Both the position numbers and the translations under genes were made by a program. The notes under the pieces are model-generated. The model did not search any database and was not told where the DNA came from. It worked only from the letters and a program-made list of their open reading frames with translations. From Candidatus Fermentithermobacillaceae bacterium (GTDB lineage Bacteria > Bacillota > Sulfobacillia > Fermentithermobacillales > Fermentithermobacillaceae), in the NCBI GenBank assembly GCA_012512325.1, contig JAAZEL010000090.1, positions 1 through 37,873 of the forward strand: a stretch of DNA of 37,873 nucleotides, read 5' to 3'. Of the stretch, positions 1 to 25,143 are shown in pieces (positions within the stretch are counted from its first letter, which is position 1; every line of letters starts with the position of its first letter).

Positions 1-1008
1 GATCTCGTCGCCTCCTCCCCTGCCGATGATGATCTCGCCCTGCTCTTCAAGCCGGCGTATCAAGGCAACGATGCGCTGCTGGGCTTCCTCTACGTCCCGC
101 AATCTTACGGGCCCCAGGTAGTCTATGCTTTCCTTCAAGGTCTCCACGGCGCGGGACGACATGTTTCGGCAGAACTTGTTCATCACGTCCTCCGACGCGT
201 TCTTAAGAGCAAGGGGCAGGTCTCTGGACAAGTCAACGTCACGCAACAACCTCTGCATTGACCTGTCGTCGAGGTAGATGATGTCTTCAAACAAGAACAT
301 CCTGCGCTTGATTTCTTCAGCCAGTTCCGGAGCTTCCATTTCCAAGGCTCCCAGGATTGTCCTTTCGGTCTGACGGTCAACGTTATTGAGGATGTCCACA
401 ATGGTGCCAACTCCGCCGGCCTGGGTATAATCCTGGCCGACCAAGGAAAGCACTTTGCGCTCCAGGATGCGCTCAATCTCCTTGACTACATCGGGGCTTG
501 TCCTGTCCATCAATGATATCCGCCTGGCTACTTCCGCCTGGAGATCCGGTTCCAAGGATGCCAAAATCGAAGCCGCCTGAGAAGACGTCAAGTAGCTCAG
601 TACCAGGGCTATCGTTTGGGGTGACTCGCCTTCAAGGAAGTTCAGTATCTGAGCCCCATCGGACTTCCTGACCGTATCAAACGGTTTTACCTGCAAAGAT
701 GAGGTAAGCCTCTTCAGCACCGTTTGGGCTTGCTCAGGGCCAAGTGCCTTTTCCAGGAGTCTCTTGGCATATTCAATGCCACCTTCTTCAAGGTACTCCT
801 GGGCAATGCACATCTCGTTGAACTCTTCAAGTACCCTATCCTTAACCTCCTGCTCAACCTTGCGTCTTGATGCTATCTCCAGAGTAAGCACGTCAATGTC
901 TTCTTCCCGGAGATGCCTCATGACTTGCGCTGAAAGATCCGGCCCCAGGGTAATAAGCAGTATTGCCGCCTTTTCCCTGCCTGACAAGTTCCCGATGTAG
1001 GCGCTCAT
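1..1008 (-). CDS. fliG: Flagellar motor switch protein FliG (3' end cut by window edge)
   Basis: FliG forms the rotor ring on the cytoplasmic face of the MS ring and takes torque from the stator. Translating the minus strand from the ATG at 1008 gives 336 open codons starting MSAYIGNLSGREKAAILL, a typical FliG N-terminus. It continues through the middle domain (LNNVDRQTERTILGALE) and the C-terminal torque domain (FEDIIYLDDRSMQRLLRDVD). It reaches IIIGRGGGDEI at the window edge, so only the last few residues are missing compared with the usual 335-340. The ATG overlaps the fliF stop (TAATG), which implies translational coupling. It is the last visible gene of the flgB-flgC-fliE-fliF-fliG operon. 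Confidence 0.96.
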   Translation of the reverse strand, partial: MSAYIGNLSGREKAAILLITLGPDLSAQVMRHLREEDIDVLTLEIASRRKVEQEVKDRVLEEFNEMCIAQEYLEEGGIEYAKRLLEKALGPEQAQTVLKRLTSSLQVKPFDTVRKSDGAQILNFLEGESPQTIALVLSYLTSSQAASILASLEPDLQAEVARRISLMDRTSPDVVKEIERILERKVLSLVGQDYTQAGGVGTIVDILNNVDRQTERTILGALEMEAPELAEEIKRRMFLFEDIIYLDDRSMQRLLRDVDLSRDLPLALKNASEDVMNKFCRNMSSRAVETLKESIDYLGPVRLRDVEEAQQRIVALIRRLEEQGEIIIGRGGGDEI

Positions 1009-2540
1009 TATCTCTCATCCTCCAAGAGCCATGACTTAATCAGGGTGGCAACCAGTTGTGGGTTTGTACGGGCCAGTCTCTCCACATTCTCCCGGCTCCT
1101 TTGCCTGGCCAACAGTTCAGGAGAAATGGCGGGAGCGGTTTCCAGGGCAACAGAGGGTTCTTGTTCCAGGAGCTCCGCCATCTGCGCTTCCCGCCTGCGT
1201 CTTGCGATAATCAAGATCACGGTCCCTACAACTAGGGCGGCTGCCACCGCTATGGCGTATATGTAGATCCGCGGCAAACCTTCGGCAGGGGCGGGTTCTT
1301 CATCGAAGAGCTGGGCCAGGCTGGTATCAAACACCATCCCTGTAACCGAGATCTGATCTTGCCTTGAAGGATCCAACCCCAAGGCTGCGGTAACGGTCTC
1401 GGCTATCATTTCCCTTTCCTCTTCGTTCAGGTTCTTGTTCACCACAACCGCAACTGAGAGCTGCTTAATGGTTCCGGGGACTATCAGGGTCTCTGTAACC
1501 CTTTCGTTGACCTCGTAGTTCCGGAGCACCTCTGTGCGCTGGTATTGGAATTCACCTTGTCCCACAAATGAGTAAGACGGCACATCCAGGGCTCCTGCCT
1601 GCCCGCCGGGCGGGGCACCGGTACCCTGGTACATCTCGCTGGTTTCTTGGGTGCTCCTGAGTATTCCCGGAGGTTCGGATTCATACGTTCTGTCGGTTAT
1701 CTTGACCTTGTCGGTGTTCAAGACGGCACGCACCTGGCACACTACATTCCCGGGACCCAACACGGGAGTAAGCAAACCGAGCAGCCTGTTTTCCAGTTCC
1801 CTTTCGGTGGCAAAGGTAAGTTCAAGTACTGAACTCGTAGACAGATCGTCCTCACCTTCACCGTAAGGCAGGTCCTTTGACAGGAGCTTGCCCGACGCAT
1901 CCACCACCGTGACGTTTTCGGGTGTCAGGCCTTCAACGGCCCGCGATACAAGGTTCATTATCCCCCGTACTGATTCGGAGCTGAGGTTATATCCCGGCCT
2001 GGTCTTTACCAGAACCGACGCAGTGGGTTGCTGTCTCTGAGACACGAAAACCGTCTCCTCAGGCAATGCAATGTGGACCCTTGCGTCTTCTATGCCCGAC
2101 AATGCCGTAATGGTCCTGGTGAGTTCGCCTGACAGAGCCCTTACATATTGCACCCTGCGTTCGAAATCAGTTGACCAAATGCCCGTTGAACCCACGGCTT
2201 CAAACCCTACAACCCCGGACGACGGAAGCCCCATGGTCGCCAAGGAAAGCCTGACCCTGTGGACCCTGTCTGTGGGCACTCTTATAGTTCTCCCGCCGTC
2301 TGTGAGCTCATAAGGCACGCCTTGCTTCTCAAGTTCGCTGACTATGGCTCCTGCATCTGCCGGATCGAGGTTAGACCACAGGATTTCATAGGCAGGGCCT
2401 CTGGTCGAGTAAATCACCACTGCGACCAAGACTGCCAGGGCAACCGCGCCCCCAAGAATCACTACCCGTCGTTGGGTCTTGTTCAACCCGGACCAGGTCT
2501 GCTTTATCCCATTTGTAACGGACGTCACAAATTCTGGCAT
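1008..2540 (-). CDS. fliF: Flagellar M-ring protein FliF
   Basis: FliF builds the MS ring in the inner membrane, the base of the flagellar motor and its export gate. The 510-residue product has an N-terminal transmembrane helix at about 27-45 and the conserved stretch YEILWSNLDPADAGAIVSEL. This is followed by ring-building motifs such as VRVHRVRLSLA-type and DARVHIALPEETVF sequences. A second transmembrane helix lies near 425-446, followed by a basic run and a cytoplasmic tail ending in LIKSWLLED, the FliG-binding type of C-terminus. Length is slightly below many homologues (about 530-560). The ATG is the only reasonable start. The gene lies 30 bp after fliE and overlaps fliG by one base. Confidence 0.96.
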   Translation of the reverse strand: MPEFVTSVTNGIKQTWSGLNKTQRRVVILGGAVALAVLVAVVIYSTRGPAYEILWSNLDPADAGAIVSELEKQGVPYELTDGGRTIRVPTDRVHRVRLSLATMGLPSSGVVGFEAVGSTGIWSTDFERRVQYVRALSGELTRTITALSGIEDARVHIALPEETVFVSQRQQPTASVLVKTRPGYNLSSESVRGIMNLVSRAVEGLTPENVTVVDASGKLLSKDLPYGEGEDDLSTSSVLELTFATERELENRLLGLLTPVLGPGNVVCQVRAVLNTDKVKITDRTYESEPPGILRSTQETSEMYQGTGAPPGGQAGALDVPSYSFVGQGEFQYQRTEVLRNYEVNERVTETLIVPGTIKQLSVAVVVNKNLNEEEREMIAETVTAALGLDPSRQDQISVTGMVFDTSLAQLFDEEPAPAEGLPRIYIYAIAVAAALVVGTVILIIARRRREAQMAELLEQEPSVALETAPAISPELLARQRSRENVERLARTNPQLVATLIKSWLLEDER

Positions 2541-2570: not shown

Positions 2571-2864
2571 TTACAAGGGCATTCTCATTATTTCCTGGTA
2601 CGCCTCTATGGCTTTGTTCCTTACGGCTATAACGAGGTCCAAAGTGAGGCTGGCTTTCTCGGCGGCAAGCACCGCGGTGTGCATATCACGGGCATTCCCA
2701 GTTACCAGGTCGATCTGAGAAGCCAAAAGCTCCTTGTCCAGGTTCTCAATCATGTTCAACGTACGCTTGAACAGATCGTTGAAGGAGACATCCGGATGTG
2801 ATCTGACGCTACCGTTGTTTACTGCCGATCCGGTGGCCGGAATCGAAATAGGCCTGATTACCAT
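2571..2864 (-). CDS. fliE: Flagellar hook-basal body complex protein FliE
   Basis: FliE is the small adaptor between the MS ring and the proximal rod. The 97-residue product ends with the family signature: ALLAAEKASLTLDL-like sequence (here AVLAAEKASLTLDLVIAV), then RNKAIEAYQEIMRM. The N-terminus is variable and low in complexity, as is usual. The ATG is preceded by a GGGGGGTAG Shine-Dalgarno. It sits between flgC and fliF in the canonical order. No signal peptide is expected, because export uses the flagellar type III apparatus. Confidence 0.95.
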   Translation of the reverse strand: MVIRPISIPATGSAVNNGSVRSHPDVSFNDLFKRTLNMIENLDKELLASQIDLVTGNARDMHTAVLAAEKASLTLDLVIAVRNKAIEAYQEIMRMPL

Positions 2865-2906: not shown

Positions 2907-3365
2907 TTAGGCTCTGAACATGTCCAGGGCTTTCTGTATCATTGCCTTCGCGGCTTCCATGGCAGTCACGTTGGCTTCGTAAGATCTGGTGGCTGCCATC
3001 ATGTCGACCATTTCTGTGACCACATTTACGTTGGGATAATAAACGTACCCCTCGCTGTCGGCATCGGGGTGCCCCGGAGAATAGACCCTGCGGAGAGGAG
3101 ATGAATCCTCAATCACACCTGTTACCTTCACGCCCATAGGGTAGGATGGCACTTGTGCAACGGGCAGTTGCGCAAACAACACGTTCCTAAAGGGGAAGCG
3201 TTCTTGCGTCCTGGGCGCAAATACAGCAATCTTCCGGCGGTAAGGCTCACCCCTTTCAGTCCTGGTACTCTCGGCATTAGCCAGGTTAGAGGCTATGATG
3301 TCAAGCCGCAGCCTCTGAGCTGTAAGGCCCGATGCACTTGTCTCCATGGATGCGAATATTCTCAC
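2907..3365 (-). CDS. flgC: Flagellar basal-body rod protein FlgC
   Basis: FlgC is a proximal rod subunit exported through the flagellar type III system. The 152-residue product starts (GTG) with RIFASMETSASGLTAQRLR, followed by the rod-family signature ASNLANAEST around residue 27. It ends with the D0 helix VVTEMVDMMAATRSYEANV plus AMIQKALDMFRA, shared by rod and hook proteins. A strong GGAGGTAG ribosome-binding site lies just before the GTG at 3365. It is separated from flgB by only 3 bp, so the two are surely cotranscribed. Confidence 0.96.
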   Translation of the reverse strand: MRIFASMETSASGLTAQRLRLDIIASNLANAESTRTERGEPYRRKIAVFAPRTQERFPFRNVLFAQLPVAQVPSYPMGVKVTGVIEDSSPLRRVYSPGHPDADSEGYVYYPNVNVVTEMVDMMAATRSYEANVTAMEAAKAMIQKALDMFRA

Positions 3366-3368
3366 AGA

Positions 3369-3746
3369 CTACCTCCTCCCTTCGGTGATGGCTCTTCTCA
3401 AGAGTGAGAACTCTGCGGTCAATTGGCGGGATACGGCCGTGTAGTAGTAAGCGTTGGCCGATACTTCCGCCATCTCTCTGTCGATGTCTACACTGTTCCC
3501 GTCCGGAGTGACGCTGGTGGTGTCCAGGCTGACCGCAATGGTGTCCCGATACTTTTCCCGCATGTGCAACGGGCTTGTGACTGTGAGCCTCAGACGCGGC
3601 CTGAGGGCGTCGTACAAGTAATCTTCGAAATTGACCCTGGCCGCCTTGTAGCCCGGCGTATCACTGTTGGCTATGTTGTTGGCCAAAACCTCATGTCTGA
3701 GCCATGCACCGGTAAGCGCCCTGTGCATCAAGCCGGTTATGCTCAC
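3369..3746 (-). CDS. flgB: Flagellar basal-body rod protein FlgB
   Basis: FlgB is a proximal rod subunit and the first gene of the flagellar operon here. The open frame runs further upstream to 3848, but that extension overlaps a riboswitch and terminator and has no FlgB-like residues. The GTG at 3746 has an AGGGGGTGA Shine-Dalgarno 5 nt upstream and gives 125 residues. They start SITGLMHRALTGAWLRHEVL and lead into the rod signature NNIANSDTPGYK at about residue 23. That spacing matches other FlgB proteins, which are usually 120-135 residues. The C-terminal helix (YYYTAVSRQLTAEFSLLRRA) is also typical. Confidence 0.94.
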   Translation of the reverse strand: MSITGLMHRALTGAWLRHEVLANNIANSDTPGYKAARVNFEDYLYDALRPRLRLTVTSPLHMREKYRDTIAVSLDTTSVTPDGNSVDIDREMAEVSANAYYYTAVSRQLTAEFSLLRRAITEGRR

Positions 3747-3761
3747 ACGGATCACCCCCTT

Positions 3762-3795
3762 AAGAAACCGAAAGCCTTCCGCGAAACCGGAAGGC
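3762..3795 (-). terminator. Intrinsic terminator of the flgB riboswitch
   Basis: Read on the minus strand, 3795-3774 is a hairpin with a perfect 8-bp stem (GCCTTCCG / CGGAAGGC) and a 6-nt loop. It is followed by a T-biased run TTTCGGTTTCTT at 3773-3762. It sits between the cyclic-di-GMP aptamer and the flgB ribosome-binding site, where the expression platform of a transcriptional riboswitch is expected. The T tract is interrupted by GG, so its efficiency is uncertain. Confidence 0.75.
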
Positions 3796-3831
3796 CAGTA
3801 CAATCGATAGCAAAAGAAGCAACCGCCCTTC

Positions 3832-3918
3832 GGTGGCCCGGCCATCATAGCGGAAAGCGGCGTCCCCGCCTTAGATCCGCGGCTTTGCGTCTCTGCCTTT
3901 CGACAGATTTGCCTTTAT
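3832..3918 (-). ncRNA. Cyclic-di-GMP-I (GEMM) riboswitch aptamer upstream of flgB
   Basis: The minus strand shows all hallmarks of the class I cyclic-di-GMP aptamer in order. First comes AAAGGCAAAT (3916-3907). Next is a 6-bp stem closed by the GAAA tetraloop (3907-3892). Then comes the invariant GACGCAAAGCC (3891-3881). A second arm follows, with the stem GCGGA/TCCGC enclosing TCTAA and a GGCG-GGGA-CGCC hairpin (3880-3850). The last element is TATGATGGCCGGGCCACC (3849-3832), the tetraloop-receptor and closing strand. A terminator and flgB follow directly. By family knowledge, ligand binding in such Firmicute leaders usually favours termination and so turns motility off. The sign of regulation here is inferred. 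Confidence 0.9.
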
Positions 3919-3952
3919 CGGTTTGCGGTAACCAGCATTTTCCTTATTTGGT

Positions 3953-3985
3953 TGTCCGATGTGTTCTTTTCGACACAAACGGACA
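3953..3985 (-). repeat. Long imperfect inverted repeat between codY and the riboswitch
   Basis: TGTCCG (3953-3958) pairs with CGGACA (3980-3985). Inside this a further 5 bp (TGTGT/ACACA on the minus strand) close around an 8-nt loop after a small internal mismatch. There is no T tract on either side, so it is not a standard intrinsic terminator. It could be an mRNA-stabilising 3' hairpin of the codY transcript or an operator. Confidence 0.55.
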
Positions 3986-4018
3986 GATTCCTTCTTTTCT
4001 TATCGAAATTCCACGAAA

Positions 4019-4795
4019 CTATCTTAGTTTTTTCAGTTCATCCAGGAGTTTCAAGTTCAGGACCTTGATGTACGTCCCCTTCATGCCCAGGGATCTGGAT
4101 TCAATCACCCCTGCTGACTCGAACTTACGCAAAGCATTGACTATGACGGAGCGGGTGATTCCGACCCGATCAGCCACCTTGGAAGCTACAAGACACCCTT
4201 CGGTGCCTCCAAGTTCCTCGAAAATGTCTTTCATGGCGTTGAGCTCGGAAAACGACAGGGTTCCCAGTGCGACCTGTACGGCGGCACGCTGACGGCTTTC
4301 TTCTTCCACTTTCTCCTGCTTGTACCTAATCATCTCCATGGCGGCCACAGTAGCTGCATGCTCAGCAAGGATAAGATCGGCAGTATCCAAGGGGCCCGAT
4401 GTACGAGCCAACACAAGAGTCCCCAACCTGTCCCCGCCGCCCACCACCGGCACTATGGTGGTGACTTTACCCTTGTACGGGCAATCATGCTCCTCGAGGA
4501 ACACGCACTTGTCAGTGTCATTCTGGATATTTGCAGCGGTATCCCTGTGCATGTACAGCCTTTCCGTATAGGAAACAGGGAACTCGCTTTGGTTCAGCAC
4601 CTCTGCTTTCATCACCTGGCAGTCAAAATCGTCCAGAAGTGAATAGCCGAGGATTCGGCCGAGTTTGTCCAATATATAGACATTACATTCCAGAGAGTCT
4701 CTTAGCACCCTTGCGCTTGCATGAAAGTCCACCTCTGCTGCTCCGATCCTCAGTAGTTGGTTCATCTTGCGTGTCTTTTCCAGTAATGTCTGCAT
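4019..4795 (-). CDS. codY: GTP- and branched-chain-amino-acid-sensing repressor CodY
   Basis: CodY is the global nutritional regulator of Bacillota. It binds isoleucine/valine through an N-terminal GAF domain, responds to GTP in many species, and binds DNA through a C-terminal winged helix. The 258-residue product (usual length about 259) starts MQTLLEKTRKMNQLLR. The GAF region spans about residues 1-155. The near-invariant helix-turn-helix ASKVADRVGITRSVIVNALR lies at about 204-223, followed by FESAGVIESRSLGMKGTYIK. It is the last gene of the codV-hslV-hslU-codY operon, as in Bacillus, with the flagellar operon immediately downstream. By analogy it may repress motility or sporulation genes, but no CodY box was identified here. 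Confidence 0.97.
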   Translation of the reverse strand: MQTLLEKTRKMNQLLRIGAAEVDFHASARVLRDSLECNVYILDKLGRILGYSLLDDFDCQVMKAEVLNQSEFPVSYTERLYMHRDTAANIQNDTDKCVFLEEHDCPYKGKVTTIVPVVGGGDRLGTLVLARTSGPLDTADLILAEHAATVAAMEMIRYKQEKVEEESRQRAAVQVALGTLSFSELNAMKDIFEELGGTEGCLVASKVADRVGITRSVIVNALRKFESAGVIESRSLGMKGTYIKVLNLKLLDELKKLR

Positions 4796-4821: not shown

Positions 4822-6225
4822 CTACAATATATACCTGGTCAGATCTGTATCGCTCACCAGGCCCTTCAATCTGTCTTGGACGTATTGCCTGTCAACAATC
4901 ACTTCTCCCTGCACACCGTCAGGCGCCTCAAACAGCTCGTCTTCAAGGAGTTTTTCCATCACCGTATGAAGCCGCCTTGCACCGATGTTTTCGCTCAGCT
5001 GGTTCACTGTGAACGCCATCTTGGCAATCTCCCTTATGCCGTCGGGAGTGAACTCGAGACGGACCCCGTCTGTCTCCAGCAATGCCTTGTACTGCCGGGC
5101 CAGTGAGTTCTCGGGTTCCGTGAGAATCCTCACGAAATCCTCTTCTTCAAGGGCGTCCAACTCAACCCTGATGGGAAAACGTCCCTGCAATTCAGGAATC
5201 AGGTCCGAAGGCTTGGTCACATGAAACGCACCGGCACCTATGAACAATATGTGGTCCGTCCTTACAGGGCCATACTTGGTTATCACCGTGGTGCCTTCGA
5301 CTATAGGCAACAGGTCCCTCTGAACTCCTTCCCGGGAAACATCAGGGCCCACCCCCGATTCTCTTCCGGCGATCTTATCCAGCTCGTCGAGGAACACTAT
5401 GCCCTGTTTCTCGCACCGCCTTATCGCTTCTGCAACGATGGCATCCTGATCCACAAGCTTGGCCGCTTCTTCCTGTGCCAGGATTCTCCTGGCTTCCCCT
5501 ACGGAAACCCTTCTCTTCCTGGTCCGCTTTGGCAGAAGCCCTCCGAAGATGTCTTGCATGTTGATCTCCATCTCCTGCATACCCACACCGTCGAAGAACT
5601 CAACCCTGGGCGCAGTGGTATCCTCAACCTCAATCTCAACTTCTTGGTCCTCCAGCTCCCCGTCCCTGAGCTGCTGACGGATCAGTTTCCTCTGGACACG
5701 GGCCTGACGGACCCTCTCATTGAAATCGTCATCTTCATCATACTCCTGTTCTTGCTGAGCGGGATTGAACAGCACCTCAAAGGGGTTGGGTACGGTTCTG
5801 CGCTTCCTGGGCATGGGGCACAGTATATCAACAAGCCGCTCTTCAGCCAGGGCCTCAGCCCGGTCCTGGACGTTCCGGAAGCTCTCTTTCCTGACCATGC
5901 TAACGGCGCTTTCAACAAGGTCACGTATGATGGAGTCCACATCGCGGCCCACATAGCCCACTTCAGTGAACTTGGAGGCTTCCACCTTTACGAAGGGCGC
6001 ATTGACCAGCTTGGCCAGCCGCCTGCAAATCTCTGTTTTCCCCACTCCTGTAGGGCCTATCATAAGGATGTTCTTCGGAATAATGTCGTCTTGCAAGTCT
6101 CCTGAGACTCTCTGTCTCCTCAACCTGTTCCTGAGGGCCACGGCAACGGCGCGCTTGGCCTGGTTCTGCCCTACGATATACTTGTCTAGCTCTGCCACTA
6201 TCTCCCGAGGAGTCAATTCTTCCAT
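4822..6225 (-). CDS. hslU: ATP-dependent protease ATPase subunit HslU (ClpY)
   Basis: HslU is the AAA+ unfoldase ring that feeds proteins to the HslV peptidase. The protein shows [17 protein letters not shown] at the N-terminus, Walker A GPTGVGKT at about 57-64, and an insertion (I) domain rich in acidic and basic residues. Walker B is [10 protein letters not shown]. The C-terminus is [10 protein letters not shown], the tail that docks into HslV. The ATG at 6225 is preferred over the ATG at 6243. It has a GGGGGATG ribosome-binding site at proper spacing and gives [10 protein letters not shown], matching the family start (467 residues). It follows hslV by about 35 bp and precedes codY. Confidence 0.96.
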
Positions 6226-6259
6226 GCTCACACCATCCCCCATGGCTCAGGCAACAATG

Positions 6260-11229: not shown

Positions 11230-12885
11230 TTGAGATTTCCCAGGCCCTGGACGAAATTGGCAAGTTTGTTGTCCCCCGAGCGGGGTCGTTCAGAACGGGA
11301 CACCTTTTCCCTGGGCGAACGGCCGGCTAAGCGAGCCCGGCAGCCCCACAGGCAAAGCCGGGGCACGCCCTGGTCGAAGGAACTGGATCTTAACGTTAAG
11401 CGTCTCAAGGACATTTTCCATCTGCCTGATTCGTCAGACGTTGTGGTAAGGGAAGTGTGCTGCGCCAACCCGAACCTTCGGGTGGTCATAGCTTTCATAG
11501 AGGGGTTGGCCAGCTCCGACAAGGTTACCACGTCCGTCCTCCAACCTTTGATGCTCCTGTCCCCTATCCGCAAGGACACAGAGGATGATCCCGTGGCCCA
11601 GATCAAGGACGCGTTGCTGGCAAGCACCCAGGTGGAAGTAAAGGGCATAGTGGATGACTGCGTTGAGGCTATGGTCTCAGGGGATACTGTGGTGCTGATC
11701 CAGGGACAGGATCGGGCACTGGTGGTTGAGACCAAAGGCTGGGAGCACCGGACGGTTCAAGAAGCCGTAACCGAGAGGATCGTCAGGGGGCCGCAGCAAG
11801 GTTTCATTGAAGTGCTCAGAGCCAACACCGGCCTGCTGCGGTCAATGATCCGTTCGCCAGACCTGGTAGTGGAAAACATCGAAATCGGGCGTAGAACAAG
11901 GACCCAGTGTGCGCTCGTATACATGGCCGGGATAGTCAACGATAAGTTGGTGGCGGAAGTCCGGCGGAGGATCACGTCCATAGACATGGATGCAGTACTG
12001 ACCAGCGGCAGCCTTGAGCAGCTCATTGAAACCAGCCACAGTCTGCTGCCCACCATAATCAGCACTGAAAGGCCTGATAAGGCAGCCCATTTTGTACTGG
12101 AAGGCGCCATTGCCATCCTGGTGGCGGGCGACCCGTTTGCCCTGGTGGCTCCGGTCACCTTTTCAGCCTTCCTCCACAGCCCGGAGGATTATTACGTGCG
12201 TTGGCCCTACGGCAGCGTCTTGAGGCTGATCCGAGTGATAGCCCTGCTCATTGCCGTACTTCTCCCCGGGACTTACATAGCGGTAACCAACTACCATCAA
12301 GAGATGATCCCTACAGTGCTGCTGTTTTCGATTGCCGCATCGCGGGAATTGGTGCCTATACCCCTGCCCTTGGAAGTCATGCTCATGTACTTCGGCTTTG
12401 AACTCATACGGGAAGCAGGAATAAGGATCCCTTCTCCCTTCGGGCCGACTATAGGTATCGTAGGGGCTCTCCTCATCGGCGAAGCGGCCGTATCAGCTTC
12501 CCTGGTTAGCCCCATAATGGTTATTATAATCGCCATAACCGGCGTGGCTTCTTTCACCATACCCAACCCGGAAGTGGGAATGCTGATACGGGTGGCTACA
12601 GCCTTGTTCATCGTGGTGGGGTCGCTCCTCGGGCTTTTCGGAATAGTAGCTACCATATATGTCGCGTTTTGCAGGATGGCTTCCCTGACCAGCCTGGGGG
12701 TTCCCTTCCTTGCGCCCACGGCTCCGAAGCAACGTGCGGATGCTGACGTGTTAGCCCTGGGGCCCACCTGGACAATAGAAACCAGGCCCCGGTTCCTGAG
12801 GCCCAAAGACGTGCGCAGACAGCCCGATATAGCAAGGAAATGGGACATAGAATCCCAGCAGGCACAGGAGGACGATTCACCATGA
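11230..12885 (+). CDS. Spore germination receptor subunit A (GerA/GerKA family)
   Basis: The A subunit of a nutrient germinant receptor sits in the inner spore membrane and forms an oligomeric channel with the B and C subunits. The 551-residue protein has a soluble N-terminal half with the family start LNVKRLKDIFHLPDSSDVVVR (about 53-73) and QDRALVVETKGWEHR. It is followed by a membrane half with helices between about 330 and 475, including PTVLLFSIAASRELVPIPLP and PFGPTIGIVGALLIGEAAV, both hallmark GerA motifs. The start is TTG, supported by CGGAGTGG 7 nt upstream. The first 45 residues are basic and variable. Its stop overlaps gerB as ATGA. Expression is expected from the forespore sigma factor SigG, but I could not place a convincing promoter. 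Confidence 0.93.
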   Translation: MRFPRPWTKLASLLSPERGRSERDTFSLGERPAKRARQPHRQSRGTPWSKELDLNVKRLKDIFHLPDSSDVVVREVCCANPNLRVVIAFIEGLASSDKVTTSVLQPLMLLSPIRKDTEDDPVAQIKDALLASTQVEVKGIVDDCVEAMVSGDTVVLIQGQDRALVVETKGWEHRTVQEAVTERIVRGPQQGFIEVLRANTGLLRSMIRSPDLVVENIEIGRRTRTQCALVYMAGIVNDKLVAEVRRRITSIDMDAVLTSGSLEQLIETSHSLLPTIISTERPDKAAHFVLEGAIAILVAGDPFALVAPVTFSAFLHSPEDYYVRWPYGSVLRLIRVIALLIAVLLPGTYIAVTNYHQEMIPTVLLFSIAASRELVPIPLPLEVMLMYFGFELIREAGIRIPSPFGPTIGIVGALLIGEAAVSASLVSPIMVIIIAITGVASFTIPNPEVGMLIRVATALFIVVGSLLGLFGIVATIYVAFCRMASLTSLGVPFLAPTAPKQRADADVLALGPTWTIETRPRFLRPKDVRRQPDIARKWDIESQQAQEDDSP

Positions 12886-14144
12886 GCGCCGGCGGCGGGC
12901 AGGAAGTCAAAGCGGCTCAGTTTGATGTGGCAAAACTGGGTCACATTGATTCACACCAATTCACCGTAATCCTCGGCTTCCTCGTGGCCACCAAGGTGTT
13001 TCTGACCCTGCCGTCATACATTACCGCCAGGATAGGGACAGGTGCTTGGCTTACCATATTAGTCTCAGCCGCCCTTGCAGGCGTTGGGCTGTGGGGATGG
13101 GTGGCATGGTGCAAGGCCACAGGCAACCTGGGATTTGTGCCCTCTGTCCGGCTTACCCTGGGGAGAGTCCTTGGAGACCTGATTGCACTTGCACTCACGG
13201 TATATTTTGTGCTGGTGACTTCGTTTAGCGTACGGGTGTTTGCGGGCGGTGCTGTAATCGGCCTGTTGCCTGAATTCCCCATTGAAATACTCATAGCAAT
13301 TGTAATCGCATCCGCCATGTACGCTGCATGGCTGGGACTGGAATCGGTGGCCAGGGCCGCTACCTTCTTCTATCCCCTGACCCTGCTTGCCATTGTAATT
13401 GTGGGCTTGGGGTCATACAGGCTCTTTGACATCCGCCACCTTCACCCGCTGTTTGGCATGGGCATACCCGTAATACTCAGAGAGTCCGTGGTCCAGCTGG
13501 GCATTTTCGGCGGGATTTCCGTGACGGCCATATTTAAGTCATACCTTAGAAATCCGGATGGCCTCCCGAAGGCGGCCTTTGCCGGCCTATCCGTAGCATC
13601 CCTGTTCATGGTCGCCTCCGTGGTGCTGGTGGCGGCAATCCTGCCGTATCCGGAAAACACCAGACACGTGATTTCACTGGGGGTGATCGCCCGAACGGTC
13701 TACCTCGGCCGTTTCCTCCAGAAAATCGAAGCCCTGTTCACGTTCACTTGGTTCTTCGCATCGGCGGTGCACGCCAGCACGTGTTACATGGTAACCTTTG
13801 TACTCCTAAGCCAGCTCATGAACACCCATACCTACAGGCCGCTGGTGCCGGGAGTGGGCCTGTTGACCTTCGGCATCGCAGCCCTGCCCGGCTCCATCCA
13901 TGCCGCCGGCAGGCTGCTTTCAGGGGTTTACACCTACCTGGGCTCATTCAGCGTAGCCCTGGGCCCGGCACTGTACATCATTGCCACGACTCGGGGCACA
14001 CAAGGGCAAGCCGCCCATGTGGCACAACTCCTGGGGAAGCTGCAACGACAAGCGGATTACTCTGAAGACCGACAAACCAACCCAGCTCACCCATCTACAG
14101 GAGAAGGCGCACAGTCTGGAATGCAAGGGGAGGAAACGAGATAA
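12882..14144 (+). CDS. Spore germination permease subunit B (GerB/GerKB family)
   Basis: The B subunit is an APC-superfamily-like integral membrane protein thought to bind the germinant. From the ATG at 12882 (ribosome-binding site AGGAGGA, 9 nt spacing, ATGA overlap with the A subunit) the product is 420 residues with about ten hydrophobic segments between roughly residues 25 and 375. Typical features are ISSHQFTVILGFLV-type sequence (here DSHQFTVILGFLVATKVF) near the start and PLFGMGIPVILRESV in the middle, as in GerKB proteins. The frame stays open to 12840, but that start lies inside the A gene. The basic, hydrophilic C-terminal tail is poorly conserved. Its TAA stop overlaps the proposed start of the C subunit. 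Confidence 0.92.
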   Translation: MSAGGGQEVKAAQFDVAKLGHIDSHQFTVILGFLVATKVFLTLPSYITARIGTGAWLTILVSAALAGVGLWGWVAWCKATGNLGFVPSVRLTLGRVLGDLIALALTVYFVLVTSFSVRVFAGGAVIGLLPEFPIEILIAIVIASAMYAAWLGLESVARAATFFYPLTLLAIVIVGLGSYRLFDIRHLHPLFGMGIPVILRESVVQLGIFGGISVTAIFKSYLRNPDGLPKAAFAGLSVASLFMVASVVLVAAILPYPENTRHVISLGVIARTVYLGRFLQKIEALFTFTWFFASAVHASTCYMVTFVLLSQLMNTHTYRPLVPGVGLLTFGIAALPGSIHAAGRLLSGVYTYLGSFSVALGPALYIIATTRGTQGQAAHVAQLLGKLQRQADYSEDRQTNPAHPSTGEGAQSGMQGEETR

Positions 14145-15430
14145 ACCGGCTTGCCGTCGGCAAACAAAGGATTGCACTACTTGCGTGCCTGTTGGCTTTC
14201 CTGGGCGCCTGCATGTCCGGTTGTTACGGCAGGCACGAGCTTGAGGAACTGTCTTTCGTGACCATCCTGGGGGTTGACAAGGGCAGGGATAAGCATCTCC
14301 TGGCCACCGCTTCCATTGCCCTTCCCAGGAAGATGCTGGGTGGAAGCCCTTCAGAAGGGGGAGGAACCTCTACGTCCTTCATAATATCCGTCGAGTGTGA
14401 AGGCCTGCTGGACGGGCTTGCCCAAATGACCACAATGACGTCGAGAAGAGTCACCACTGCCCATACCCAGATAGTGATACTCGGCGAAGACTTAGCCCGG
14501 GACGACGCTGGTGTGATCCTGGACGTATTCTCCCGGAACTTGGAGTTCAGGCAAAACACCTTGGTCGCGGTGTGCAAAGGCAGCGCCTCTCAGTTCATCA
14601 GGAACTTCAGCGTACCCGAAGAATCGGAACCTTCGGATTACCTGGTCAAGCTGATACACAGCTGCAAGCTTGAGTTGGGCATCTGCCCGTTCACATCGAT
14701 TTACGACTTCCTGATAGCTTACGGCACTGAGCAGACGGAACCGTGGACACCCTACCTGACCCTAGCTTCACCGGTGGAATCAGTTGCTGAAACGCCGGAA
14801 GGTGAGGGCAAATCCAACGGTTCAGACGGTTCAAGCCAAGGAGAAGGGCCGGAAGATGCGGGAGACCCTCCTGAAAGAATAATAGAGCTCGCCGGTTCCG
14901 CAGTCTTCAAGAAACACGGCGGCAAGATGAGGATGGTGGGAACCTTGGACACCAAGGAAACCATGGCCGTTAGCATTTTGATGGGCGATTTTTCAAGAGG
15001 CTTCATGGACATCATTATGCCCCGCACTCCTGAAAGAAGGGGAACCCTGGTATTCCAGCATTGCTCCGTCATCAGGAAAACCTCCATAGAAGACGACAGG
15101 GTAAGGGTAACCTTCAGGATCAGGGCCACGGCTTCCATGGAGGAGACTACGTCCAGAGAGATGCAGCTTTCTCCCGGTTACCACGCCGAGATAGTCGATG
15201 AAGCTCAGCGAACCCTGGAATCCCTCTTGCAGGGTGCGTTCATTAAGCTTACAGCCATGGAGTCGGACATATTAGGCCTTGGAAGGACAATCCACGGGCA
15301 TTTCAGGACCTGGCCCGAGCTGAAACAGTTTGACTGGCCGTCCAAGTTCAAGTACACCGTGGCCGACTACGACCTCAAGCTGTTCGTGCTTACTTCAGGC
15401 TATGCAGACAGCCCCCCAACCCCTGAGTGA
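14141..15430 (+). CDS. Spore germination lipoprotein subunit C (GerC/GerKC family), apparent AUA start
   Basis: The C subunit is a lipoprotein attached to the outer face of the inner spore membrane. The sequence shows a basic region (GKQR), a hydrophobic core (IALLACLLAFLGACM) and lipobox SGC, then YGRHELEELSFVTILGVDKG, the usual Cys-Trp/Tyr-x-Arg-x-Glu-Leu start of mature GerAC proteins. The C-terminal domain ends in DLKLFVLTSGY-type sequence. No ATG, GTG or TTG lies in frame between a TGA at 14063 and a TTG at 14192, which falls inside the signal peptide. GGGGAGG at 14127-14133 is 7 nt before an ATA at 14141 that overlaps the gerB stop as ATAA, so I start there (429 residues). A TTG start at 14192 would leave almost no signal peptide. 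Confidence 0.88.
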   Translation: MNRLAVGKQRIALLACLLAFLGACMSGCYGRHELEELSFVTILGVDKGRDKHLLATASIALPRKMLGGSPSEGGGTSTSFIISVECEGLLDGLAQMTTMTSRRVTTAHTQIVILGEDLARDDAGVILDVFSRNLEFRQNTLVAVCKGSASQFIRNFSVPEESEPSDYLVKLIHSCKLELGICPFTSIYDFLIAYGTEQTEPWTPYLTLASPVESVAETPEGEGKSNGSDGSSQGEGPEDAGDPPERIIELAGSAVFKKHGGKMRMVGTLDTKETMAVSILMGDFSRGFMDIIMPRTPERRGTLVFQHCSVIRKTSIEDDRVRVTFRIRATASMEETTSREMQLSPGYHAEIVDEAQRTLESLLQGAFIKLTAMESDILGLGRTIHGHFRTWPELKQFDWPSKFKYTVADYDLKLFVLTSGYADSPPTPE

Positions 15431-17138: not shown

Positions 17139-18371
17139 GTGAGCGCGTCGGAAACCGGCAACGGTAACCGCTGGATATCCACGGAGCTGAGAGGCTTTGA
17201 GCGAAAGCGGTTAATCGCCTACATGGCGCTGGTGGCGGGGATAGGACTTGTGTTCGCAGTCCTGGAGGTTAGACACTATGACTTGCCTGACCCTTGCACC
17301 ACCGCCTTTTTCACCATCCTTGGAATGATCAGCTTAAGCCGCCCGATAAAACTTGCAGCCAGACTCAACTTGCATGCAACTTGGCCGATTCTGATCGCCG
17401 CCCTTTATTGCTACGGCCTCCCCCTGGCCCTCCTCACAGGAGTACCCGGCATGCTTGCCCAAGCCGTTTTTCTCAGAAAACCATGGCTTACATCCATGTT
17501 TAACGCCGGGCAGATGGCCATAAGCTTGGGCCTGGCTGACCTGGCTTTTCAGCAGGTGAGATGCGTTACGCCTCATACCATAACCTGCAAAATAGTGGCC
17601 CTGGTATTGGCTATGGTCGTTTTCGACCTGTGCAACGTTACCCTGGTAAGCATTGCAGTGTCCAGGGAGCGGAAGCAAGAATGGCAAGAGTGCTTTTGGC
17701 AGATGGCCATTGCCAGGCGGCGCAGCCCTCTGCCGTTCATGTACCTCCTGTCCCTTACAGGCGCCCTGCTTTGCTCCTTTATCGGAAAGGGCGCGCTACT
17801 CATCAGTTTCGCCCATATGGTTGCAGTGTTTTACCTCATGCGCTTCCAACGGGAACTGGATATCAGGACTGAGGAATCCCGCACGGATCCCCTGACCAAG
17901 GCCAAGAACTACCGGTATCTTGAGGACTGGTTGCACAGCGAATTTCCGAAACTGGTGGCCGGCAAAACGCCGTGTTCTTTCGTGTTCATTGACCTGGACG
18001 GCCTGAAGACCGTTAATGACAAGTTCGGCCACGAGGCCGGGGATAAGGTGTTGATCGAGGTAACCAGGGCCTTGTTTTCCGTTACCAGGCCTGAAGATGT
18101 GACCATCCGGTACGGGGGGGACGAGTTCATCATAATCTGCCCCTCCCTGGACATCGAAGCTGCGGAAGCCCTTGGTCGACGCCTGATTGCCATCTGCAGC
18201 GCGCCGGTGTACTACGAAGGCTCATCTTTCAGCATAAGGTTGAGCGTGGGTGTATCTGCCTACCCTGACGATTCAGACGTAGGCAGGGACCTTATCCGGC
18301 TCGCCGACTGGGCCATGTACCATGCCAAAAGAGAAGGCGGCAACCGGGTGTGTAAAGCCGGCGACCTTTAG
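17139..18371 (+). CDS. Membrane-bound diguanylate cyclase (GGDEF domain)
   Basis: It makes cyclic-di-GMP from two GTP. The 410-residue protein has an N-terminal membrane sensor with about six hydrophobic segments between residues 24 and 235. I could not name the sensor domain. The GGDEF domain begins at TDPLTKAKNYRYL (about 249). It contains the metal-binding FIDLDGLKTVND, an intact GGDEF motif (326-330) and an RxxD inhibitory site (RPED, 317-320) exactly five residues upstream. It therefore looks active and product-inhibited. The GTG start follows GGAGGT. It has its own promoter and ends in a convergent arrangement with yraN. Its product could be the ligand of the riboswitch in front of flgB in this same window, which is an inference. 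Confidence 0.93.
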   Translation: MSASETGNGNRWISTELRGFERKRLIAYMALVAGIGLVFAVLEVRHYDLPDPCTTAFFTILGMISLSRPIKLAARLNLHATWPILIAALYCYGLPLALLTGVPGMLAQAVFLRKPWLTSMFNAGQMAISLGLADLAFQQVRCVTPHTITCKIVALVLAMVVFDLCNVTLVSIAVSRERKQEWQECFWQMAIARRRSPLPFMYLLSLTGALLCSFIGKGALLISFAHMVAVFYLMRFQRELDIRTEESRTDPLTKAKNYRYLEDWLHSEFPKLVAGKTPCSFVFIDLDGLKTVNDKFGHEAGDKVLIEVTRALFSVTRPEDVTIRYGGDEFIIICPSLDIEAAEALGRRLIAICSAPVYYEGSSFSIRLSVGVSAYPDDSDVGRDLIRLADWAMYHAKREGGNRVCKAGDL

Positions 18372-24345: not shown

Positions 24346-25047
24346 TCAGGTAACGTAGAGTCTGCAAGTTCTCGCAAGCTTGGCAAGGGCCCTCTTTTCG
24401 ATACGGCTCACATATGAGCGGGATATTCCAAGCATATTTGCTATTTCCCTCTGGGTTCTCTGGAGGTTGCCGTTCAAGCCATACCGGAACTGCAGCACTT
24501 TCTTCTCCTTTTCATCCAATACGTCAAAACGCGCAAGCACGTTTTCAGCCTGGAGCTTGGCGGTAACCAGGTCGGCAATGTCGGGCTCCTGATCCTTGAT
24601 AATGTCGATATACGACACTTCGCCTTCTTCTGAACCCGATGTCAAAGGCTCAAACAGATGCATTTCGCTCCTGCTGTTCTTGGTTGCCCTAAGATGCATT
24701 AAGATTTCGTTCTCAATGCACTTTGACGCGTATGTGGCCAGCCTGGTCCCTCTGTCCCGGCTAAAGGTGTCTATGGCCTTGACAAGTCCGATGCTCCCTA
24801 TGGATATGAGGTCTTCCACATCCTGGGGATTGGGGTCAAACTTCTTCACAATGTGGGCCACCAACCTCAAGTTGTGCTCCACCAGGAGGTGTCTGCTGGC
24901 CATGTTCCCTTCCCTCACCCCGTCCAGGTGGAGGGACTCTTCGGTTTCAGAAAGGGGCGGGCGAAAATGATTGCCTGTAAGATATCCGAAGCAGTTGACG
25001 ATCGCCTCTAAGAGGATAGCCGCTATACCAAGAAGCAGCTCATGCAA
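24346..25047 (-). CDS. sigK: Mother-cell sporulation sigma factor SigK (pro-sigma-K)
   Basis: SigK directs late mother-cell transcription (coat, cortex, release). The protein shows region 2 (EHNLRLVAHIVKKF, EDLISIGSIGLVKAI, ATYASKCIENEILMHLR) and region 4 (TQREIANMLGISRSYVSRIEKRAL), matching SigK better than SigE. The frame is open to 25092, but the TTG at 25047 has GGAGGGG 8 nt upstream and gives 233 residues. Its N-terminus LHELLLGIAAILLEAI... aligns residue for residue with the hydrophobic pro-sequence of Bacillus SigK up to PPLSETEE. The gene is uninterrupted, so no skin-type element splits it. Confidence 0.93.
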   Translation of the reverse strand: MHELLLGIAAILLEAIVNCFGYLTGNHFRPPLSETEESLHLDGVREGNMASRHLLVEHNLRLVAHIVKKFDPNPQDVEDLISIGSIGLVKAIDTFSRDRGTRLATYASKCIENEILMHLRATKNSRSEMHLFEPLTSGSEEGEVSYIDIIKDQEPDIADLVTAKLQAENVLARFDVLDEKEKKVLQFRYGLNGNLQRTQREIANMLGISRSYVSRIEKRALAKLARTCRLYVT

Positions 25048-25143
25048 GCTCAAGTCCCCTCCGGTCAAAACAGATTGGGCCTGCCATGGCACATCTACAT
25101 CCTATGACGTGGAGGCCATGTGCGTGCGTGTCCCTGACCGAAA

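Follow-up and report, generated by a model that had tools for sequence, protein, structure and literature searches.

The question raised by this locus is how the RNA leader lying between codY and the flagellar operon of a Candidatus Fermentithermobacillaceae bacterium could control the genes behind it. The window, meaning the whole analysed 37,873-nt stretch of contig JAAZEL010000090.1 (GCA_012512325.1), carries all of the leader features on its minus strand, in the following gene context.

4822-6243, hslU, upstream of codY (gene order)
4019-4795, minus strand, codY, the 5′ neighbour of the leader (Pfam PF06018/PF08222; conserved gene order)
3369-3746, minus strand, flgB, first gene of flgB-flgC-fliE-fliF-fliG (Pfam PF00460; relatives)
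2907-3365, minus strand, flgC (Pfam)
2571-2864, minus strand, fliE (Pfam)
1008-2540, minus strand, fliF (Pfam)
1-1008, minus strand, fliG, running off the contig (Pfam)

A sequence-only reading had placed a near-consensus GEMM-I aptamer in the codY-flgB gap, and covariance-model scoring of the window, with a gathering cut-off of 35 bits for RF01051, bore this out with a score far over that cut-off and with a 5′ limit slightly past the position 3918 given at first.

3829-3923, minus strand, c-di-GMP-I (GEMM-I) aptamer (RF01051, 80.1 bits, model 1-87)

All 87/87 model positions were matched (E 2.2e-14 for the window), and the RF01051 alignment contains the GGCAAA, the GAAA loop as the GNRA tetraloop of the first hairpin, GACGCAAAGCC and the closing strand. 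RF01051 was the sole Rfam family above its cut-off in the window, a search in which no c-di-GMP-II riboswitch was matched at cut-off, and this copy in the codY-flgB gap is the only one in the assembly. Judged by its sequence, the leader is confirmed to hold a genuine c-di-GMP-I riboswitch, for which ligand binding is predicted.

Because the fold is common to the cGAMP class as well, a reading with 3′,3′-cGAMP instead of c-di-GMP as the ligand was considered, and it appears exceedingly improbable. In AAAGGCAAA, Rfam position 11 is a G, and this first G of GGC we take to be the equivalent of the ligand-contacting G20 in Vc2 numbering; the adenine at this base that marks GEMM-Ib is absent. G20A is the change that has been studied for cGAMP binding (PMC6274999). 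Moreover, the genome encodes three GGDEF and two HD-GYP matches together with one PilZ, while no EAL domain was matched in it, which makes the making, breaking and sensing of c-di-GMP plausible in this organism.

The association with flagellar genes is not peculiar to this contig. Each of the 17 examined genomes of the order Fermentithermobacillales retains the arrangement hslU-codY-riboswitch-flgB-flgC-fliE, the aptamer preceding the motility operon in every one of them, consistent with the flgB operon being its target as first proposed. RF01051 is present in 94/101 related genomes, and several other families of the taxonomic class share a codY-aptamer-flgB type of arrangement. Among the codY loci of named Firmicutes CodY relatives, a c-di-GMP-I match was found at only 1/19 (Symbiobacterium) and was absent at the other 18 tested, Halanaerobium, Desulfallas and Tepidanaerobacter included. 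The aptamer of the Symbiobacterium MAG (L138, 4403-4493) lies directly after codY. Further c-di-GMP-I aptamers were seen in family members at G008:C33:4617-4702, G010:C5:8582-8665 and G013:C101:7559-7643, with CCTC and GAGG flanks, no obvious terminator, and exported-protein-like open frames nearby.

Between the aptamer and flgB, the elements expected of a transcriptional switch were located.

3773-3796, minus strand, intrinsic terminator hairpin (pattern scan; co-variation in 17 leaders)
3764-3773, minus strand, U-rich tail TTTCGGTTTC / UUUCGGUUUC, 7/10 U (sequence)
3750-3760, minus strand, strong ribosome-binding site AGGGGGTGATC / AGGGGGUGAUC (sequence)

The ribosome-binding site follows the hairpin, as had been noted, and leads to a GTG at 3746, the flgB start; relatives align with the protein translated from this GTG from residue 1-7 onward. 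The upstream extension of the flgB frame overlaps the terminator and the 3′ end of the aptamer, and on these two grounds 3747-3848 is regarded as non-coding leader, in agreement with the initial view.

The arms of the hairpin, GGCCTTCCG/CGGAAGGCT, form eight Watson-Crick pairs plus a terminal G-U. Taken alone, this hairpin stands at chance level, as the pattern scan of the window returned two terminators versus 1.4 expected by chance, and its U tail is weak; the tail of other genus members reads UUUUUGG. It is nevertheless taken as real because a co-varying stem is conserved at this place in the 17 order leaders, with 91.7% of alignment cells paired and four pairs changed on both sides, so that the 8-bp hairpin with a T-biased tail of the sequence-only reading stands. 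For all named helices together, 89.9% of cells were paired in the 17-leader alignment versus 37.5-49.3% when slid. The position of the hairpin speaks against control acting mainly on translation, in which the flgB ribosome-binding site would be masked: a terminator with a co-varying stem lies between aptamer and ribosome-binding site throughout the order, and no conserved masking helix was seen in an unsystematic look. By inspection, a terminator arm may pair weakly with the GGGGG of the ribosome-binding site, and class I switches acting on translation initiation are known (PMC11218506), yet we hold mainly translational control to be highly unlikely here.

How the aptamer could reach this terminator was approached by searching for segments of the leader that would compete with the hairpin, and one pairing stood out.

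3911-3928, minus strand, switching strand CCGCAAACCGAUAAAGGC, comprising the P1 5′ strand and the ligand-core GGC, proposed 5′ half of the antiterminator (15 bp with 3779-3795)
3779-3795, minus strand, GCCUUCCGGUUUCGCGG, covering the terminator 5′ arm, its loop and the start of its 3′ arm, proposed 3′ half of the antiterminator (co-varies between genera with 3911-3928)

This 15-bp duplex has a predicted energy of −22.2 kcal/mol, the equivalents in all 17 order leaders range from −12.0 to −24.8, and 3911-3928 is the best partner of the terminator arm and loop among all 20-nt segments of the leader in hand. When the strands were exhaustively permuted among genera, only 4/720 arrangements were as good as the true pairing of 5′ strand and terminator, and 2/720 for the terminator loop region alone, in a test spanning six genera, three of which have the same motif. 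The middle of the pairing reads AAA/UUU in the genus of the window, with the AAA within CCGCAAACCG and the UUU in the terminator loop, GCACC/GGUGC in three genera, CGUUACCG/CGGUAACG in the sister family, and GCAAG/CUUGC in one species of another genus, whose neighbours have shorter versions. Since unpaired loop bases have no partner in the stem, such co-variation of the loop is hard to explain without an alternative pairing, and these comparisons suggest that the aptamer's own 5′ strand serves as the antiterminator. The terminator has a stronger partner elsewhere in the leader in about half of the 17 genomes (G004, G005, G006, G008, G009, G011, G012 and G013), in several of them at the 3′ end of the aptamer, which means that the 5′ strand and the 3′ end may both contribute.

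The latter possibility corresponds to a rival version of the same OFF switch, in which the aptamer 3′ tail CCACCGAAGG (3827-3836) would take the antiterminator role against the 5′ arm of the terminator, the arrangement of most other leaders in the class. Such a duplex is possible in the window at −13.7 kcal/mol, as against −22.2 for the 5′ strand, but is weak, about −6, in G002, G007, G010 and G012. Inside the order it failed the own-versus-swapped test, 61% of the 720 genus permutations being as good, whereas it passed outside the order, where 76 leaders preferred their own tail-arm combination over swapped ones (z −6.6, P <= 0.0002) and the 5′ strand was unsupported (z +0.7). These 76 leaders belong to other families of the same taxonomic class and have the same aptamer with a terminator after it, several of them before flgB; they differ in that the antiterminator signal resides in the 3′ tail and not in the 5′ strand. 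For the leader studied here, the 3′-tail version is therefore rather unlikely, and the 5′ strand is preferred.

For the 5′ strand to be released or withheld by the ligand, a closing stem next to the aptamer is required in our model.

3925-3929, minus strand, P1 5′ strand ACCGC, able to pair with GCGGU 3′ of the aptamer
3822-3826, minus strand, P1 3′ strand GCGGU, inside GGGCGGUUGC (3819-3828)

Complementary segments of the P1 type were found in every order leader by a per-sequence duplex search, and the P1 columns were paired in 66% of cells, a value lowered in part by flanks out of register on the automatic 17-leader alignment. Transcripts of the window were then folded from the putative start to points near the 3′ end of the hairpin, with or without ligand constraints. 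Free RNA ending 3 nt short of the hairpin end formed 14.8/15 antiterminator pairs; at the hairpin end, the antiterminator held 8.8/15 versus 3.4/9 pairs for the terminator, and 6-10 nt beyond it the terminator was favoured. With aptamer core and P1 imposed, the RNA at the hairpin end formed 8.1/9 terminator pairs and no antiterminator, and folding at 55°C gave a similar outcome. Imposing the core without P1 did not release the antiterminator, so the switch model depends on P1, which we infer to be the link between ligand binding and switching.

As a further switching test, the complete leader was folded globally by minimum free energy and by equilibrium partition functions; this was uninformative for most relatives, in which the terminator wins at equilibrium with ligand constraints or not; the switch must consequently be kinetic, being decided during transcription. 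That most relatives have the terminator without ligand at equilibrium could be read in favour of an ON switch, in which c-di-GMP prevents termination, and ON-type c-di-GMP riboswitches occur in C. difficile (PMC6366702), with one class I member induced (PMC3649979). We nonetheless judge this direction very unlikely, as the terminator overlaps neither aptamer nor P1 and stays formed with core and P1 imposed in 17/17 order leaders, and flagellar targets are normally repressed by c-di-GMP. In the predicted structures, the terminator is compatible with the bound aptamer and incompatible with the alternative pairing, as expected of an OFF switch, the direction predicted here.

Taken together, aptamer, synteny, co-variation and folding make it quite probable that the leader is a class I c-di-GMP transcriptional OFF switch of the flagellar operon, with a 5′-strand antiterminator, P1 as the link and probably a sigma-H promoter. 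At low c-di-GMP, the 5′ strand would capture the emerging 5′ arm and loop of the terminator, the terminator would be blocked, and flgB-flgC-fliE-fliF-fliG would be made. Once c-di-GMP is bound, the 5′ strand would be locked in P1 (ACCGC/GCGGU) and in the core through its GGC; as this GGC presumably includes the G20 equivalent, antiterminator and bound aptamer would be mutually exclusive. The terminator could then fold, and RNA polymerase would stop before flgB, so that high c-di-GMP is predicted to cause termination and a lack of flagella.

As to where transcription begins, two promoter-like elements precede the aptamer.

3986-3994, minus strand, −35-like element GAAGGAATC of the putative sigma-H-type promoter, fitting RnAGGAwWW except for the last base
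3966-3974, minus strand, −10-like element GTCGAAAAG, separated from the −35 element by an 11-nt spacer

Promoters of Firmicutes sigma-H (Spo0H) have a similar layout, with a consensus like RnAGGAwWW-N11/12-RnnGAATWW, which the leader promoter resembles. An equivalent −35-like element occurs at the same place in 17/17 order leaders, all of which have GAAGGA(A/T)-type and GT(C/A)GAA-type boxes, 11-12 nt apart and 59-74 nt before the aptamer; the −10 box of the window and of three genus mates reads GAAA, and GAAT is found in 13/17. The core motif was present in 13/17 order leaders, in 12/32 other leaders of the flgB (rod-protein) type and in 3/70 other leaders, the last two differing with a Fisher P of 4e-5, and shuffled sequences gave values near zero. 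In 14 family genomes, AGGAWT-N12-GTMGAAT matched 101 sites versus 0 for the reversed motif, and in the genome of the window such sites lie ahead of ftsE, nrdR and the spoIIA operon (anti-sigma F), as well as of an ftsL-like frame with a weak match; the motif marks a conserved regulon that takes in spoIIA, ftsE and nrdR. The genome has a sigH gene (363 bits), and a sigma-70 scan found no sigma-70 promoter. The leader promoter looks to be of the sigma-H type, and a leader of about 210 nt starting just 5′ of the aptamer is the best explanation; it differs from usual sigma-H promoters in that it would drive a flagellar basal-body operon.

Example sites of the motif are G000:C31:1436-1460, C18:41176-41200 and C15:22416-22440. 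On contig C92, which also carries a sigma factor of RpoD size, a match with a longer spacer falls within a dnaG-like frame. Encoded in the window itself, about 13 kb from the riboswitch, is one of the three GGDEF matches of the genome, a membrane diguanylate cyclase of the MASE9-GGDEF type (17139-18371, plus strand) whose GGDEF motif is intact. A GerA-type germinant receptor operon comprising GerA, permease and GerC (11230-15430, plus strand) supports a spore-forming lifestyle, and a SigK-like sporulation sigma factor (24346-25092, minus strand) reached the subfamily cut-off and just missed the equivalog cut-off. The CodY of the window has its closest named relative, at 87% identity, in a Candidatus Fermentithermobacillaceae MAG. 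DTU015, a complete genome of this lineage, was predicted to be motile, sporulating, fermentative and thermophilic (PMC10215811).

The likeness to the flgB leader of C. difficile, suggested from the outset, holds for the target and the expected logic: Cd1 / Cdi1_3 is likewise a class I aptamer with a terminator and with flgB first in an early flagellar operon, and is experimentally OFF by termination (PMC6366702, PMC3649979). The two differ in that the C. difficile flgB 5′ UTR is long, its promoter reportedly lying 496 bp or 261 nt upstream (PMC3649979, PMC3865298), against a leader of some 210 nt here, in that its promoter is reported to be sigma-A-like (PMC3865298) rather than sigma-H-like, and in that its leader has an invertible flagellar switch (PMC7446863, PMC5386303). 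SigH of C. difficile was reported to modulate motility negatively (PMC3865298). Bc1 of Bacillus thuringiensis resembles the present case as a class I aptamer with intrinsic terminators, but it has two of them, both of which unfold with ligand in SHAPE data, and targets mcpE (PMC11218506). Aptamer and flgB target are hence of known kinds, and the 5′-strand antiterminator and sigma-H promoter, neither of which, like P1, figured in the sequence-only reading, are the features proposed as a variant. A platform with a 5′-strand antiterminator was not found described in the accessible, mostly non-subscription literature, and its novelty is provisional, the comparison with C. difficile having been drawn by target, logic, leader and promoter rather than by antiterminator sequence.

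The contrast between support for the 5′ strand inside the order and for the 3′ tail outside it points to an exchange of the antiterminator strand. We lean slightly towards the view that, in Fermentithermobacillales, the antiterminator moved from the 3′ tail to the 5′ strand, including the core GGC, and was combined with a sigma-H promoter, such that flagella would need both a transition-phase sigma factor and low c-di-GMP. With this finding, the range of the flgB c-di-GMP riboswitch, which has been studied in a single gut pathogen, comes to include a deep, uncultured lineage of fermenting thermophiles as well as several families related to it; in these Firmicutes, the control that c-di-GMP exerts on flagella directly through RNA would then seem both ancient and common. 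The locus is also a testable example of related lineages in which the same class of aptamer acts on its terminator by way of different strands, and would tie motility to the sigma factor of sporulation entry.
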